DNA of 22,313 nucleotides from a virus: positions 1 to 22,313 of the IMG/VR virus record IMGVR_UViG_3300042465_001636. One strand, 5' to 3'. The notes below the pieces were generated by a model. It was not told the origin of the DNA. It saw nothing but the letters and a program-made list of their open reading frames with translations, and did not search any database. Below, piece after piece: positions 18,345 through 22,313 of this stretch (position 1 is the first letter of the stretch; each line of letters opens with the position of its first letter). The position numbers and the translations under genes are program-made.

Positions 18345-20209
18345 TAGTTTTTCCTACCCCCAGACTGATTCTTAATACCTACTGTCTGTGTACCTTGTAC
18401 AGCTATTAATCTATTATTAATATCTGCATATTCAGTAGCTTTCTTTTGATTTTCTAAAGTTTCAGTTTGTATTTCAATTTGTTTTTGTAAGGTTTTTATT
18501 AGTTCCTCAGAAGTATCACCAGATCTAACACCCACTATTCTTTCCAAAGTTGATGCTATAGACATTGTAGAGTCTTTTAAAAATGATGATTGTGTTGCAT
18601 TCATGTCTGCTGTTTTACCATCAATATTAGCTAATCTTTTTTTAGCTTCTTCTAAAGAATCGTTTCCTTCTCTAGCTAATGGTTGACCAGCTACTACGCT
18701 CTCTCTTAATTTTTCTAATCTATTAAGCATCTTTTCTTGTTCTTTTCCATTTGCCTTCACTGCGTCGGCTGCCTCTTTCATTACTAACCCAAGTGGGCTG
18801 GTTGTATCTTTTGATCCTACAAGCCCCTTCTTCATATTTTCATAAGTATTTAATTTATTAGCTTCTACCTCTGCATCAAGTTGCTGCACTCTTAAGTCAT
18901 ACTCTGCTTCTGCTTTCATAAGTGCATCATCAGCAGCACCTGTAGCAAAAAATTGTAGTGCATCGGACATAACGGCTAAAAATGAATAAAATCCTGATTT
19001 TAGTTGAGTTAACACTCCTCCAGGTCTAATAAATTCATAAAAGCCTTCTTCTATTTTATCTAATATTAATGGAATACCTTTTTCAATAAATATAGCACCA
19101 AAAGTAAAAGCATTTTCTAACTTGGGTAATGCCCACCGTGCAAAATCAATAATCTTTAACTGCCAATTTTTTATAGTTTCTCCACTACCTCCTAAAGTAT
19201 CTGTCCACTCTCTAAACCTTGTTCCAACTACATTAACAACAGCAGAAAAAACATCAGCTAGTTTAACTAAAAATGGATAAGCATTTGCTAAACCTTCTTG
19301 GAATGGAGTGAATATTTCATTTTTTAAGTTCTCAAGAGTTTGTCCAAAATCTCTAGCAGCTTTTTGTTCATCACCAATCCGTTTACCAAAGTTCTTAGCT
19401 ACTGTTGTAAAATCTAAAGAAGCCGCACCCATAACTCTTTGAGCGACTCCTATTTGACCAAAGAATTTATCAGCTCCTCCAGCAAGAACTTGAACATTAT
19501 TTGCTGCTCTTTGTATACCTTCTTTTAAAATCTTTAGTGCTTCTTCTTGATTCTTTGCAGCCGATAGTCTTTCTCTAATATCTCCAATACCCATTCTAAC
19601 TAAAGAAGCATATCCTTCTTGAGAAGTATCCATCACTGCTTTCATAACTGCATTTAATGGACCAGCTAACTGTGGACCTAATTCTGCTTGAAGACTGGCT
19701 ACAGCCCCAACAACCTTATCACCCATTCCTGCTAAATCTTGTGCTGGGAATGTTGCTGCAAGTGCATCAATTGCGTCAACAAGTTTATCTGTGCTTATAT
19801 TCCATGTCTGGCTGGTAGCTATTAAACTATTAGCCAATACGTTTGTTTGATCTCTGGATAATCCCAAAGACGATTCTAATTTAGCCATAGACTTTGCTGT
19901 ATTGGCAAAGCTAGTACCCGTCATTTGTTGCTGATTTATTAGTCTAGCTACTCCTGCGGTATTTCCTTGTAAACCTTCTTCTAGTCCAGCTAATCCTGCT
20001 TGGAATTTTTGAGTTATATCACCTCTAAGACCTTGCATTGTTCCGCCAAGATCTTTTCTAGTCTGCTCATAAGTTTTTCCTAAAGCTAAAGAACTTTTCT
20101 GAGCCTTATCAGCAAAATCCATAGCAGCCTTAAACTGGTCTTTAATACCAGTTAAAGTTTTGGTTAACCCTTCAAGAGCTAATATTAGTGGTAGTGCTGG
20201 TACTGCCAT
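18344..20209 (-). CDS. Tail tape measure protein
   Basis: 621 aa, mostly helical and rich in Ala, Leu, Gln and Lys. The N-terminal 150 residues resemble phage tape-measure proteins (MTGTSFANTAKSMAKLESSL, GLSRDQTNVLANSLIATSQ). Hydrophobic stretches at about 311-330, 368-384 and 407-428 are typical of the segments tape measures may insert into host membrane. Charged coiled-coil stretches follow at about 430-510 and 560-600, and the C-terminus is short and basic (SGGRKN). The protein sets tail length and is ejected ahead of the DNA. The length is close to T4 gp29 (590 aa), predicting a tail of roughly 90 nm at about 1.5 angstrom per residue. The first 38 nt lie inside the end of the upstream gene in another frame. 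The start has only weak A/G-rich upstream bases (AGAAAG). Confidence 0.85.
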   Translation of the reverse strand: MAVPALPLILALEGLTKTLTGIKDQFKAAMDFADKAQKSSLALGKTYEQTRKDLGGTMQGLRGDITQKFQAGLAGLEEGLQGNTAGVARLINQQQMTGTSFANTAKSMAKLESSLGLSRDQTNVLANSLIATSQTWNISTDKLVDAIDALAATFPAQDLAGMGDKVVGAVASLQAELGPQLAGPLNAVMKAVMDTSQEGYASLVRMGIGDIRERLSAAKNQEEALKILKEGIQRAANNVQVLAGGADKFFGQIGVAQRVMGAASLDFTTVAKNFGKRIGDEQKAARDFGQTLENLKNEIFTPFQEGLANAYPFLVKLADVFSAVVNVVGTRFREWTDTLGGSGETIKNWQLKIIDFARWALPKLENAFTFGAIFIEKGIPLILDKIEEGFYEFIRPGGVLTQLKSGFYSFLAVMSDALQFFATGAADDALMKAEAEYDLRVQQLDAEVEANKLNTYENMKKGLVGSKDTTSPLGLVMKEAADAVKANGKEQEKMLNRLEKLRESVVAGQPLAREGNDSLEEAKKRLANIDGKTADMNATQSSFLKDSTMSIASTLERIVGVRSGDTSEELIKTLQKQIEIQTETLENQKKATEYADINNRLIAVQGTQTVGIKNQSGGRKN

Positions 20210-20618
20210 TGTTTACTTTCTTTTCTAGTATCTCATCATTCTTTGTCTTTTTCTTAGACTTAATAACGTGCAGGGATCCATAAATTTTATTTAAAATATA
20301 AGTTCTATAGTTTTCTTTAGGTATTCCTTTATTTTTATATAGATCATCTAATGAGTCTGGGGTAAAAGTACCGTTATCAGGTAACTTAAAGCCTGTTAAT
20401 AATAAGTTACCTGTTTTAGCCTCCTTAACTATGGGCTGGACAACTAACACCATCCTCATAGATCGGCTACCCTTGCCTGTTCCTAAAGAATATCTAAAAA
20501 AAGTAACATCCCCTGGATTGGCACAGGATATAGACTTCTGGACAATAGATACCTCCTTTTCAGGATCAGCCTGTATGCTTTTTAAAAAATTCTGGATTTG
20601 CTTTGTAAAAATTGCCAT
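20172..20618 (-). CDS. Unknown protein, first gene of the tail operon
   Basis: 148 aa; family not recognised. Residues about 35-80 form a beta-rich core, GDVTFFRYSLGTGKGSRSMR then MVLVVQPIVKEAKTGNLLLT, reminiscent of small SH3-like barrels. A helical part follows (LDDLYKNKGIPKENYRTYIL). The last 30 residues are a Lys-rich then Ser/Thr/Asn-rich, probably disordered tail. It lies immediately before the tape measure gene, where many phages encode tail assembly chaperones or tube-related proteins. The 38-nt overlap with the tape measure would need a +1, not -1, shift to fuse the frames, so the usual chaperone frameshift is not supported. No Shine-Dalgarno sequence precedes its ATG; a TATAAT-like element sits about 10-15 nt upstream, which could give a leaderless mRNA. 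Confidence 0.7.
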   Translation of the reverse strand: MAIFTKQIQNFLKSIQADPEKEVSIVQKSISCANPGDVTFFRYSLGTGKGSRSMRMVLVVQPIVKEAKTGNLLLTGFKLPDNGTFTPDSLDDLYKNKGIPKENYRTYILNKIYGSLHVIKSKKKTKNDEILEKKVNNGSTSTTTNISS

Positions 20619-20652
20619 ATTGTATATATTATATACTAAAAGATAAATAATA
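20619..20652. promoter_or_regulatory. Divergent promoter region with 15-bp palindrome
   Basis: This 34-bp AT-only-looking gap separates two divergent starts. GTATATA-T-TATATAC at 20622-20636 is a perfect inverted repeat with 7-bp arms. On the minus strand TATAAT occurs at 20633-20628, which would start transcription about 3 nt before the ATG at 20618. On the plus strand TATACT at 20632-20637 or TATATT at 20625-20630 could serve as -10. TTGCCA at 20612-20617 resembles a -35 but is poorly spaced (14 or 7 nt). No good -35 is seen for the minus direction. A phage-encoded sigma factor or repressor recognising the palindrome is equally possible. Confidence 0.45.
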
Positions 20653-20949
20653 ATGAGTAATATAGATACAGACTTAATAGACTTTCTAGATTTAATAAAT
20701 GAAACACTTAGCTATTCTTTTGTAGAAAGATGGAGACATAAGTATTCAGAAAAATTCATAAAGCATTTCCAATTTAAAATATTGGATTCTATGAATAGAC
20801 AAAAACCAATAAAACTAGAAATGCTATATAATTTTCTAACAAAAAAGTGTAAGTATTCACACGATCAAGTACAAAACTTTTTTGAGTCTGTAGACATACA
20901 AATATACTACCCATTTATTTATGGGTCTTATCCGAAGAAGCCTTTTTAG
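20653..20949 (+). CDS. Small helical protein of unknown function, opposite strand to tail operon
   Basis: 98 aa, acidic start (MSNIDTDLIDFLDLINETL), then a basic-aromatic middle (FVERWRHKYSEKFIKHFQF) and a C-terminal half rich in Phe, Tyr and Lys. Predicted mostly helical; no membrane segment or signal peptide. No homologous family is recognised. It fills the gap between the tail operon and the nuclease completely, and it has a promoter-like region 5' but no Shine-Dalgarno sequence. The 3' end overlaps the convergent nuclease gene by 35 bp. A remote resemblance to the helix-turn region of T4 gp33 (late transcription co-activator) crossed my mind (LYNFLTKKCKYSHDQVQNFF), but it is too weak to name. 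Coding is likely because the frame fills the space and starts right at the divergent promoter. Confidence 0.6.
   Translation: MSNIDTDLIDFLDLINETLSYSFVERWRHKYSEKFIKHFQFKILDSMNRQKPIKLEMLYNFLTKKCKYSHDQVQNFFESVDIQIYYPFIYGSYPKKPF
20909..20926. terminator. Small hairpin between convergent genes, possible bidirectional terminator
   Basis: ACCCAT (20909-20914) and ATGGGT (20921-20926) form a perfect 6-bp stem with loop TTATTT. The TAA stop of the nuclease lies in the loop, and the 98-aa gene ends 23 bp further on. Neither side has a convincing T-run, so it would be a weak intrinsic terminator at best. Confidence 0.3.
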
Positions 20950-21703
20950 CCTTTAGCTCTTCTACCTTCTTTGTAACCTCGTTTATTGGATTAAATTCTG
21001 GGCACGCCGACTTGTAAGCGCACCAGTTACAGAAATCGTTACGGTTAGGCTTCATATCCTCCATCTTGCACTTACGAATCTTCCAGACCTCATCTACTAC
21101 AGCCTTAAGATGGGATCCAATCTGAGGCACAGAGTATTGGACATGGACAAAAGATCCAGTAAGAGGATAGTAGTGTGCTGCAATAATATTTGAATAAGGC
21201 ACATTGTATAGCTTGCTTACAGCATATACATAACCCTTAAGCTGAGAATCTTGATATAGTTCAACCTTAGACTTCTCTTTCTTGGAAGTCTTGTAGTCGA
21301 TGATTAAATAGCCGCCATCCTTACCTTTGACGATTCTATCAATTACGCCATTCAAGGTAATGTCATCTTTAACCTCAACTTCAAACGTAAGCTCTGTGGC
21401 AACTGTTTCATTAAGTTGTTGATTGAACTTAACAAAATTCTCTATACACTTTAAATCTTTGCCATCGTACTTCTCTGATACGCTGTATGAACCCCTTACC
21501 TCTTCAGCTATCCGAACTAACTCCTCTTGAGACTTTGCGTTCACTCCGTTCTCAAAGATCTTGTGGACATAAGATCCAAAGTGCAGCGCGTCTGTGTTTG
21601 AGTCTTCAGGTTCAGGAAGCCTATCGACGTAGCGGTAACGATACTTCAATTTACACTGTTTAAAGGTTTGATACTTAGATTCGGAAATAGTTTGTATGTA
21701 CAA
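20915..21703 (-). CDS. PD-(D/E)XK nuclease with Fe-S cluster cysteines (AddB/Cas4/RecB-like)
   Basis: 262 aa. Catalytic motifs are visible in order: GSYVHKIFE (H47), LNGVIDRI (D122), YLIIDYKTSK (D136 and K138, the D-x-K core) and QLKGYVYAV (Q154, Y158). Cysteines C17 (FKQCKLKYRYRY), C225, C228 and C234 (FCNWCAYKSACPEF, C-x2-C-x5-C) match the four-cysteine 4Fe-4S staple that pins the C-terminus to the N-terminus in AddB and Cas4 nucleases. The expected role is DNA end processing in phage replication and recombination; there is no CRISPR array or cas1/cas2 here. The start is TTG: an in-frame TGA lies just upstream, no ATG lies near, the conserved N-terminal motif begins at once, and GAGGTG is 5 nt upstream. 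It overlaps the divergent primase start by 8 bp and the convergent 98-aa gene by 35 bp. GC and codon use look higher than in the tail genes. Confidence 0.85.
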   Translation of the reverse strand: MYIQTISESKYQTFKQCKLKYRYRYVDRLPEPEDSNTDALHFGSYVHKIFENGVNAKSQEELVRIAEEVRGSYSVSEKYDGKDLKCIENFVKFNQQLNETVATELTFEVEVKDDITLNGVIDRIVKGKDGGYLIIDYKTSKKEKSKVELYQDSQLKGYVYAVSKLYNVPYSNIIAAHYYPLTGSFVHVQYSVPQIGSHLKAVVDEVWKIRKCKMEDMKPNRNDFCNWCAYKSACPEFNPINEVTKKVEELKAKKASSDKTHK

Positions 21704-22313
21704 TATAGCACCTCAGTTTATTAGAGACTACATTACCAAGAATTTTTCCAATATTGGTAAACTATCTGCTAATGGCCGAGAGTTTATAATGGAGTCGCTT
21801 TTTATCGAAAACGATTATAAGCGACACATGAGCATTAATATAGATAGTGGTCTATGGCAGTGCTTCAAGACTGGACGTACAGGAAACTTCGTCAGATTCT
21901 ACGCGGAAGCCGAAAATCTTCCTTACTTTAAGGCTTACAAGGATCTCTTAGTTAAGAACTTCTGTTTCCTTGGTGACGATACAATTCCTGATATCGTCAA
22001 GGAAGAGCGCCAGCTAGAACTTGATACCGACAGCCTAATCCCCCTTAATATTGCATCTGGATTCTCCGAAGATCCTAAGATATTGAACGCATGGAATATT
22101 CTCTTTAGTAGAAAGCTTTTCAATGAATCAAATGATACAAGACCAGAATACTACTTGTGTTTGGATGGAAAATTCAGAGATAGAATTATCATTCCGTTTA
22201 GTAAGGATGGTGTCGTGTTCTATTTCCAAGCCCGTGCTACTGGAGATCAGCGACCCAAGTATCTTAATCCTTCAACTGAGATAGCTCCTAATCCTTCTGA
22301 AATTCTATATCCT
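21696..22313 (+). CDS. DnaG-type DNA primase, N-terminal part (runs off right edge)
   Basis: My translation from the ATG at 21696 gives 206 residues open to the window end. An in-frame TGA at 21669 and the absence of another ATG support this start, with GGAAA at 21683-21687. Residues 34-68 align with the CHC2 zinc ribbon of primases: SLFIENDYKRHMSINIDSGL then WQCFKTGRTGNFVRFY. However, of the four ligand positions only one (C56) seems kept; L35, E38 and T59 replace the others. Residues about 165-206 match the start of the DnaG catalytic core: FRDRIIIPFSKDGVVFYFQA, then RPKYLNPS and ILYP. The TOPRIM domain would lie beyond the edge. It should lay down RNA primers at the phage fork (T4 gp61 equivalent), though a primase-helicase fusion cannot be excluded. 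TTTACA at 21650-21655, inside the nuclease gene, is a possible -35. Confidence 0.78.
   Translation, partial: MYNIAPQFIRDYITKNFSNIGKLSANGREFIMESLFIENDYKRHMSINIDSGLWQCFKTGRTGNFVRFYAEAENLPYFKAYKDLLVKNFCFLGDDTIPDIVKEERQLELDTDSLIPLNIASGFSEDPKILNAWNILFSRKLFNESNDTRPEYYLCLDGKFRDRIIIPFSKDGVVFYFQARATGDQRPKYLNPSTEIAPNPSEILYP
21709..21714 (-). promoter_or_regulatory. Ribosome binding site supporting the nuclease TTG start
   Basis: The minus strand reads CTGAGGTGCTATATTG. GAGGTG lies 5 nt upstream of the TTG at 21703, and an in-frame TGA overlaps its left part. This site decides the non-ATG start. It is located inside the primase reading frame. Confidence 0.7.
21733..21760. repeat. Inverted repeat inside the 5' end of primase, upstream of nuclease
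   Basis: TTACCAA (21733-21739) and TTGGTAA (21754-21760) are perfect 7-bp inverted arms around 14 nt. Nested within is the perfect 10-bp palindrome CCAATATTGG (21748-21757). The element lies 30-57 bp upstream of the nuclease start, where an operator for that gene would sit, and at codons 13-22 of primase. It could be an operator, an mRNA hairpin, or chance in AT-rich coding DNA. Confidence 0.3.

Follow-up and report, generated by a model that had tools for sequence, protein, structure and literature searches.

Pairs of prokaryotic genes whose 5' ends overlap on opposite strands are rare. In the available portions of two surveys, 331 of 14,958 overlaps from 58 species are divergent, a strong under-representation (PMC2174442, PMC2478687), and the divergent overlaps of more than 60 bp that were examined, 75 in number, are all judged there to be start misannotations (PMC2478687, available text). 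The nuclease and primase genes described here overlap in the same manner, in the phase (123:213, as read in this analysis) that the available portions of these surveys give as the commonest divergent one. The difference from the overlaps treated in that text is that the present one is conserved over a phage group and that there is support for both starts.

The second comparison is with noncontiguous operons, in which a gene on the opposite strand lies between the genes of an operon, and the opposite transcripts would overlap along it. The available parts of the literature describe them for menE-menC-MW1733-ytkD-MW1731 of S. aureus and, in phages, for tha/ith of phage 80alpha (PMC11087260; review PMC7154746). 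Our locus has this layout, with a 98-aa gene and the primase gene on one strand and the nuclease gene between them on the other, the outer two presumably forming a single operon. Compared with these cases, as far as the accessible text describes them, the inverted nuclease here overlaps the start codon of the downstream primase and has its signals in primase codons; moreover, relatives exist with the nuclease flipped into line, and co-transcription is suggested by position. By analogy, the interleaved arrangement would be a noncontiguous operon with the addition of shared start DNA.

The third comparison is with the interfering promoters pR and pL of phage 186 (PMC7708051, available part), with which the locus shares opposed transcription and possible transcriptional interference. 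The pair pR-pL belongs to a phage switch; no repressor or lysogeny switch was noticed here.

Genes and start codons of the locus

The window, that is, the whole stretch of DNA analyzed, is a 22.3-kb IMG/VR fragment whose minus strand carries tail and baseplate genes. At its right end there are the 98-aa gene (plus strand), the nuclease gene (minus strand), and the 5' part of the primase gene (plus strand), as listed in Table 1. In the near-identical relative L002 the primase is 331 aa long.

Table 1. Positions of genes and candidate signals in the window
Feature	Position	Strand	Details
Nuclease gene	20915..21703	-	262 aa, TTG start; PD-(D/E)XK family; Cys17 and C-terminal CxxCx5C
DnaG/TOPRIM-type primase gene, 5' part	21696..22313	+	frame cut at 206 aa by the window end
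Head-to-head overlap of nuclease and primase coding sequences	21696..21703	both	8 bp
GAGGTG Shine-Dalgarno (SD) sequence of the nuclease	21709..21714	-	5 nt before TTG; primase codons 5-7
CTCTAATAA, -10-like, matching the promoter motif of the phages themselves	21718..21726	-	primase codons 8-11
98-aa conserved gene, primase strand	20653..20949	+	3' end overlaps nuclease 3' end by 35 bp
Divergent gap with TATATTATAT	20619..20652	.	34 bp; between the 98-aa gene and the opposite tail gene
148-aa gene, head of tail/baseplate genes, nuclease strand	20172..20618	-	

The nuclease matches the PDDEXK profile PF12705 (E 1.1e-35) and Cas_Cas4 (1e-5). An N-terminal Cys, within residues 13-22, is present in all 108 non-redundant relatives, and in 104 of them it is combined with CxxCx(4-6)C near the C-terminus; we take one such Cys together with such a motif to be a predicted iron-sulfur site of the Cas4/AddB type. 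The window primase matches phrog_47 (E 2.7e-13), and the profile of its family matches the DnaG catalytic core (2au3, 9.6e-17). Residues E219, G220, D223, D262 and D264 (L046 numbering) are invariant in the primases. The match to the CHC2 zinc site (PF01807, E 0.0019) is below the cut-off of that profile, and only part of the ligands are present in the alignment. The 98-aa protein is mostly helical by prediction (pLDDT 89.5); it has no family match at a meaningful E-value in Pfam, PHROGs or PDB sequences, and no convincing fold was found for its model (best Foldseek E 2.1).

The original prediction that the primase ATG at 21696 and the nuclease TTG at 21703 lie within each other's genes, with 8 bp in common, is borne out by the sequence. 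The ATG occupies 21696-21698 on the plus strand, TTG is the minus-strand reading of CAA at 21701-21703, and 21696-21703 are common to both genes. The primase frame has a stop (TGA) at 21669-21671 and no ATG, GTG or TTG from there to 21696. As the nuclease frame has a stop three codons before TTG, there is no earlier ATG, GTG or TTG for this gene either. A nuclease start well downstream, the alternative named in the prediction, would lose a conserved residue: the next start (TTG, codon 19) removes Cys17; misannotation of this start was rejected. Both start codons are supported independently of the annotation, by the conservation of their position, the nuclease SD, and the need for Cys17.

The nuclease start codon at the junction is ATG in 103, TTG in four and GTG in one of the 108 relatives, TTG of the window being the odd one; most relatives with the 8-bp overlap have ATG for both genes (ATGTACAT or similar). 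The base that gives TTG instead of ATG at 21703 also turns primase codon 3 into Asn, one mutation changing two proteins; this codon is Ile or Met in 26 of the 29 relatives compared.

The starts given for relatives are homology projections in which ATG took precedence. In L049-L063 and L069-L071, among others, the primase frame is open 40-140 bp into the nuclease gene and contains earlier in-frame starts, and nucleases of some relatives have ATG 3 or 18 nt earlier. Hence, in several relatives the primase start is less certain and the true overlap could be longer.

Conservation of the junction among relatives

Scans for relatives yielded 77 loci with the nuclease, 14 with the window primase and, with the primase family alignment, 80 among the matches listed out of 190 confirmed relatives. 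In total, 171 loci (L002-L092 and L134-L213, some of them one contig found twice) were compared, 164 of them with both starts readable; the window itself is absent from this set, while the near-identical L002 and L007 are included. Merging loci whose nuclease genes share 21-mers, which corresponds to about 95% identity, left the 108 non-redundant relatives. The related loci all come from environmental contigs and not from cultured phages, their host and promoter motif being deduced. Many of the statistics given below ignore shared ancestry; the exception is the column comparisons, in which the sequences compared serve as their own control.

The two genes are divergent in 161 of the 164 readable loci. 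In the non-redundant set, the start-to-start distance is -8 bp in 54, -2 in 35, 0 in seven and +1 in five relatives, that is, 101 of 108 have one of these four values, including relatives whose primase is as little as 37% identical to the closest query. Since the 0 class sits in a register other than that of the -8, -2 and +1 classes, the closeness of the starts has survived insertions and deletions. Four relatives have gaps (27, 45, 46 and 48 bp, one each), and in three (L175, L183, L213) the nuclease is on the primase strand.

A tree of the nuclease and primase was built for 102 of the 108 relatives and one outgroup; several of its inner nodes have low support, and the deepest nodes are poor. 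The four gapped loci are found in four separate places of the tree, with overlapped relatives as neighbours each time. The three same-strand loci group in a single clade (0.999), which joins overlapped or abutting relatives (0.987). As gapped and same-strand loci nest among overlapped or abutting ones, the overlap is likely ancestral in this phage group. Homologs with a conserved gap between the starts, regarded in the original prediction as evidence against the arrangement, were sought, and what was found are the four gaps on four branches, which do not amount to a conserved gap. Judging by these comparisons, the overlap is real and deeply conserved.

The nuclease/primase block is also present on two bacterial-genome contigs, one from a single-cell genome of Prochlorococcus and one from a MAG of Maricaulis, which hint at possible hosts. 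A search for cultured relatives gave 63 phage records with a match to the nuclease, in every case below 60% identity, and in the three annotated records examined (Campylobacter Los1, Arthrobacter KellEzio, Microcystis MaeS) the nuclease is codirectional with its neighbours. In the 595-kb uncultured phage LR756511.1 (L093), which is also the top baseplate match in the phage collection among the matches listed, the nuclease and primase also diverge, and a 204-aa ORF on the primase strand separates them. One part of a further contig, L099 (G001:40001-60000), differs from the remainder in containing many short ORFs, some of which have repeated upstream sequences, and is possibly repeat-rich or misassembled. 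A literature search returned no account of this nuclease/primase gene pair among the matches listed.

Candidate signals on the two sides of the junction

The original prediction placed the ribosome binding site and promoter of the nuclease inside the primase gene. The former is indeed there, in the form of GAGGTG, and a candidate promoter element of the nuclease is probably there as well, the two occupying primase codons 5-11. An SD energy of -5 kcal/mol or lower is found for 81% of the 108 nucleases, compared with 6% of the 108 primases and 44% of 507 called genes. The nuclease SD is barely stronger than in shuffled sequences (-6.07 vs -4.99), because the encoded amino acids already favour an SD.

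Four primase codons are nearly frozen among sequences with the same amino acid: CCT in codon 6 (57/58), ATT for Ile9 (91/95), AGA for Arg10 (63/65) and GAC for Asp11 (53/56). The corresponding columns have values 0.98 (P), 0.96 (I), 0.97 (R) and 0.95 (D), while the next-best columns have 0.52, 0.57, 0.55 and 0.81, respectively. On the nuclease strand these codons read GTC TCT AAT, two free codons, AGG, where AGG is a part of the SD; CTCTAATAA is located 14 nt before the nuclease start. Moreover, codons 5-11 form the peak of synonymous conservation in the primase gene (top of 325 windows, O/E 1.92). Synonymous conservation at the 5' end is also observed in tail148 (1.54), tail322 (1.83; in L002 it overlaps the gene upstream of it) and tail80 (1.47, seven sequences), and a generic 5' constraint is partly possible as a contributing cause. 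As the whole cause it was rejected, since tail247 and the 98-aa gene have no such conservation and codons 6, 9, 10 and 11 stand out by column.

The phages' own promoter-like motif, and the one that is enriched before their genes, is the near-palindromic CTAT[AT]ATAG, which EM identified in roughly 36% of 240 upstream regions. It is present in many divergent gaps of 30-46 bp (e.g. L098:15014-15048, L105:16351-16393, L118:12655-12697), where it may serve both directions. Its distance to the ATG is often 3-6 nt, a spacing like that of leaderless mRNAs, and otherwise scatters over about 15-32 nt. The T4-type late promoter was rejected: TATAAATA occurs five times before 665 called genes, and TATAAA was seen 10 times with 9.9 expected. 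A sigma-70 scan of 3.3 kb around the junction gave nine matches with 9.9 expected, and none of them was at either start.

The promoter score upstream of the nuclease exceeds the background q95 in 81 of 108 relatives, against 7 of 92 for the same-strand tail-gene control. With amino acids fixed and spacers of 10-26, it is 5.38 vs 0.26 for shuffles, being higher in 101 of 101 loci; the per-locus shuffle tests (p<=0.1 in 49 of 101, median p 0.105) are only suggestive, and the relatives are not independent. CTCTAATAA has no A at the second hexamer position, where the phages' own motif keeps A in 93%. Elsewhere TCTAAT is mildly enriched (15 seen vs 7.8 expected, at least three of the 15 being nuclease genes). 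In the four gapped relatives the primase Ile codon is ATA, ATC, ATC and ATT, compared with ATT in 94/98 (Fisher p 0.0008, uncorrected for relatedness). CTATTATAG is present in two of the four gaps and its one-base variant CTATCATAG in a third; the fourth (L208) has a weaker motif match only.

The primase was expected to have its own ribosome binding site and promoter inside the nuclease gene, and this part of the original prediction is not supported. The median antiSD energy of the primase in the 108 relatives is -0.2 kcal/mol, and there is no selection for an SD over all relatives (-1.24 vs -1.65 for shuffles); only the -8 class is slightly better than shuffles (-2.60 vs -2.04), and an embedded primase SD was rejected as unsupported overall. 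In the window the primase promoter score is -1.0 bits (p 0.47), which is not a convincing promoter. The claim that each promoter must lie inside the other gene was too strong, because both genes have same-strand neighbours beyond the other gene that permit read-through. Nor does it follow, as was predicted, that transcription of the two genes has to be exclusive or alternating.

These data bear on the possibility that two promoters face each other, each inside the other gene, with complementary 5' leaders and mutual exclusion. Besides the plausible embedded element on the nuclease side, it is favoured by a primase promoter score above background in 30 of 108 relatives (5.4 expected), by CTATAATAT located 26-32 nt upstream of the primase in L064, L065, L069-L071 and L076, and by the bias of nuclease codon 3 (ATA in 77 of 92). 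Still, this score is weak and its position varies by clade, and with no primase SD selected overall we consider face-to-face promoters unlikely.

The interleaved block and its possible reading

On the nuclease strand, the genes follow in the order tail gene, (primase), nuclease, (98-aa gene), tail gene, where parentheses denote the other strand. In counts of loci that were not de-duplicated, the 3' ends of tail322 and the primase overlap in 130 of 147 loci. Of 149 loci, the nuclease and the 98-aa gene have overlapping 3' ends in at least 100 and separated ones in at least 36. The 98-aa gene diverges from the next tail gene, at distances of 21-191 bp among the 120 values listed out of 121. The promoter score exceeds the background q95 in 74 of 99 relatives upstream of the 98-aa gene, and promoter-like scores are found in 57 of 76 upstream of the tail gene opposite. 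The 34-bp gap of the window is likely to be the promoter region of the 98-aa gene, by read-through of the primase, and of the opposite tail gene. In L175, L183 and L213, where the nuclease is turned, the 98-aa gene, nuclease and primase are codirectional, with overlapping or abutting ends (in L183 the contig end cuts the 98-aa gene). This codirectional cluster supports the suggestion that the three genes form a functional unit read in the primase direction.

The explanation that we propose, and to which we give about even chances, is an old, selected head-to-head overlap in two interleaved antiparallel operons, with embedded nuclease signals and the primase read from the promoter of the 98-aa gene. 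The frozen element would be the nuclease's own -10-like promoter and SD, firing across the primase start; alternatively, the nuclease might be read through from the tail genes. The primase would be read from a promoter before the 98-aa gene, through the nuclease in antisense, since neither its SD nor its promoter at the junction is convincing. Such read-through is made likelier by the interleaving of the primase/98-aa strand with the nuclease/tail strand, and co-transcription of the 98-aa gene with the primase is suggested by position only. The nuclease and primase transcripts would overlap in antisense and would be used at different times or levels (replication vs tail strand), the replication vs late timing being suggested by gene content alone. 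Mutual exclusion of nuclease and primase transcription is possible. More speculatively, the junction could be a built-in timing device in which primase codons double as the promoter and the ribosome-binding site of the nuclease and each operon is transcribed across the other; phages would have retuned it by a nuclease flip or by an inserted standard bidirectional promoter of ~45 bp. We regard this as rather doubtful.

A nuclease having no promoter at the junction would be read only from the upstream tail genes, through the primase in antisense, the frozen codons reflecting the SD and the needs of primase translation. The strong SD and the tail genes abutting the primase 3' end in most loci agree with this, but frozen codons 9-11, at 17-25 nt before the nuclease start, are not part of an SD, and three of the four gapped relatives have another Ile codon though primase translation is still needed there. 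We regard such a nuclease as decidedly unlikely.

Junctions of other genes were surveyed in 11 records (the window and ten relatives) using a simple ORF caller, with divergent pairs restricted to genes of at least 90 aa. Of the 48 divergent pairs called, nine are nuclease/primase pairs (eight overlapping ones and the gapped L046). Among the other 39, five overlap, gaps of 0-16 bp separate another five, 19 are 30-46 bp apart, and the gap is longer in 10; at least 30 bp is kept in 29 of them, and the overlap is, as predicted, unusual for divergent phage genes. Plain genome compaction, with the overlap as a by-product of tight packing and no regulatory role, is consistent with the overlaps at 143 of 354 codirectional and 28 of 36 convergent junctions and at the five divergent ones, but it is highly improbable given the spacing kept in most other divergent pairs of the same records and a nuclease/primase distance that stays near zero despite deep divergence, at four values and in two registers.

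In the available portions of the surveys (PMC2174442, PMC2478687), no class of overlap is rarer than the divergent one, and this short example has independent support and deep conservation. Its natural variants (overlapping, abutting, gapped and flipped) constitute a ready-made mutant series. The junction lets one ask how two genes share DNA for start codons, an SD and a promoter, and whether antiparallel interleaving sets replication vs late timing in phages.
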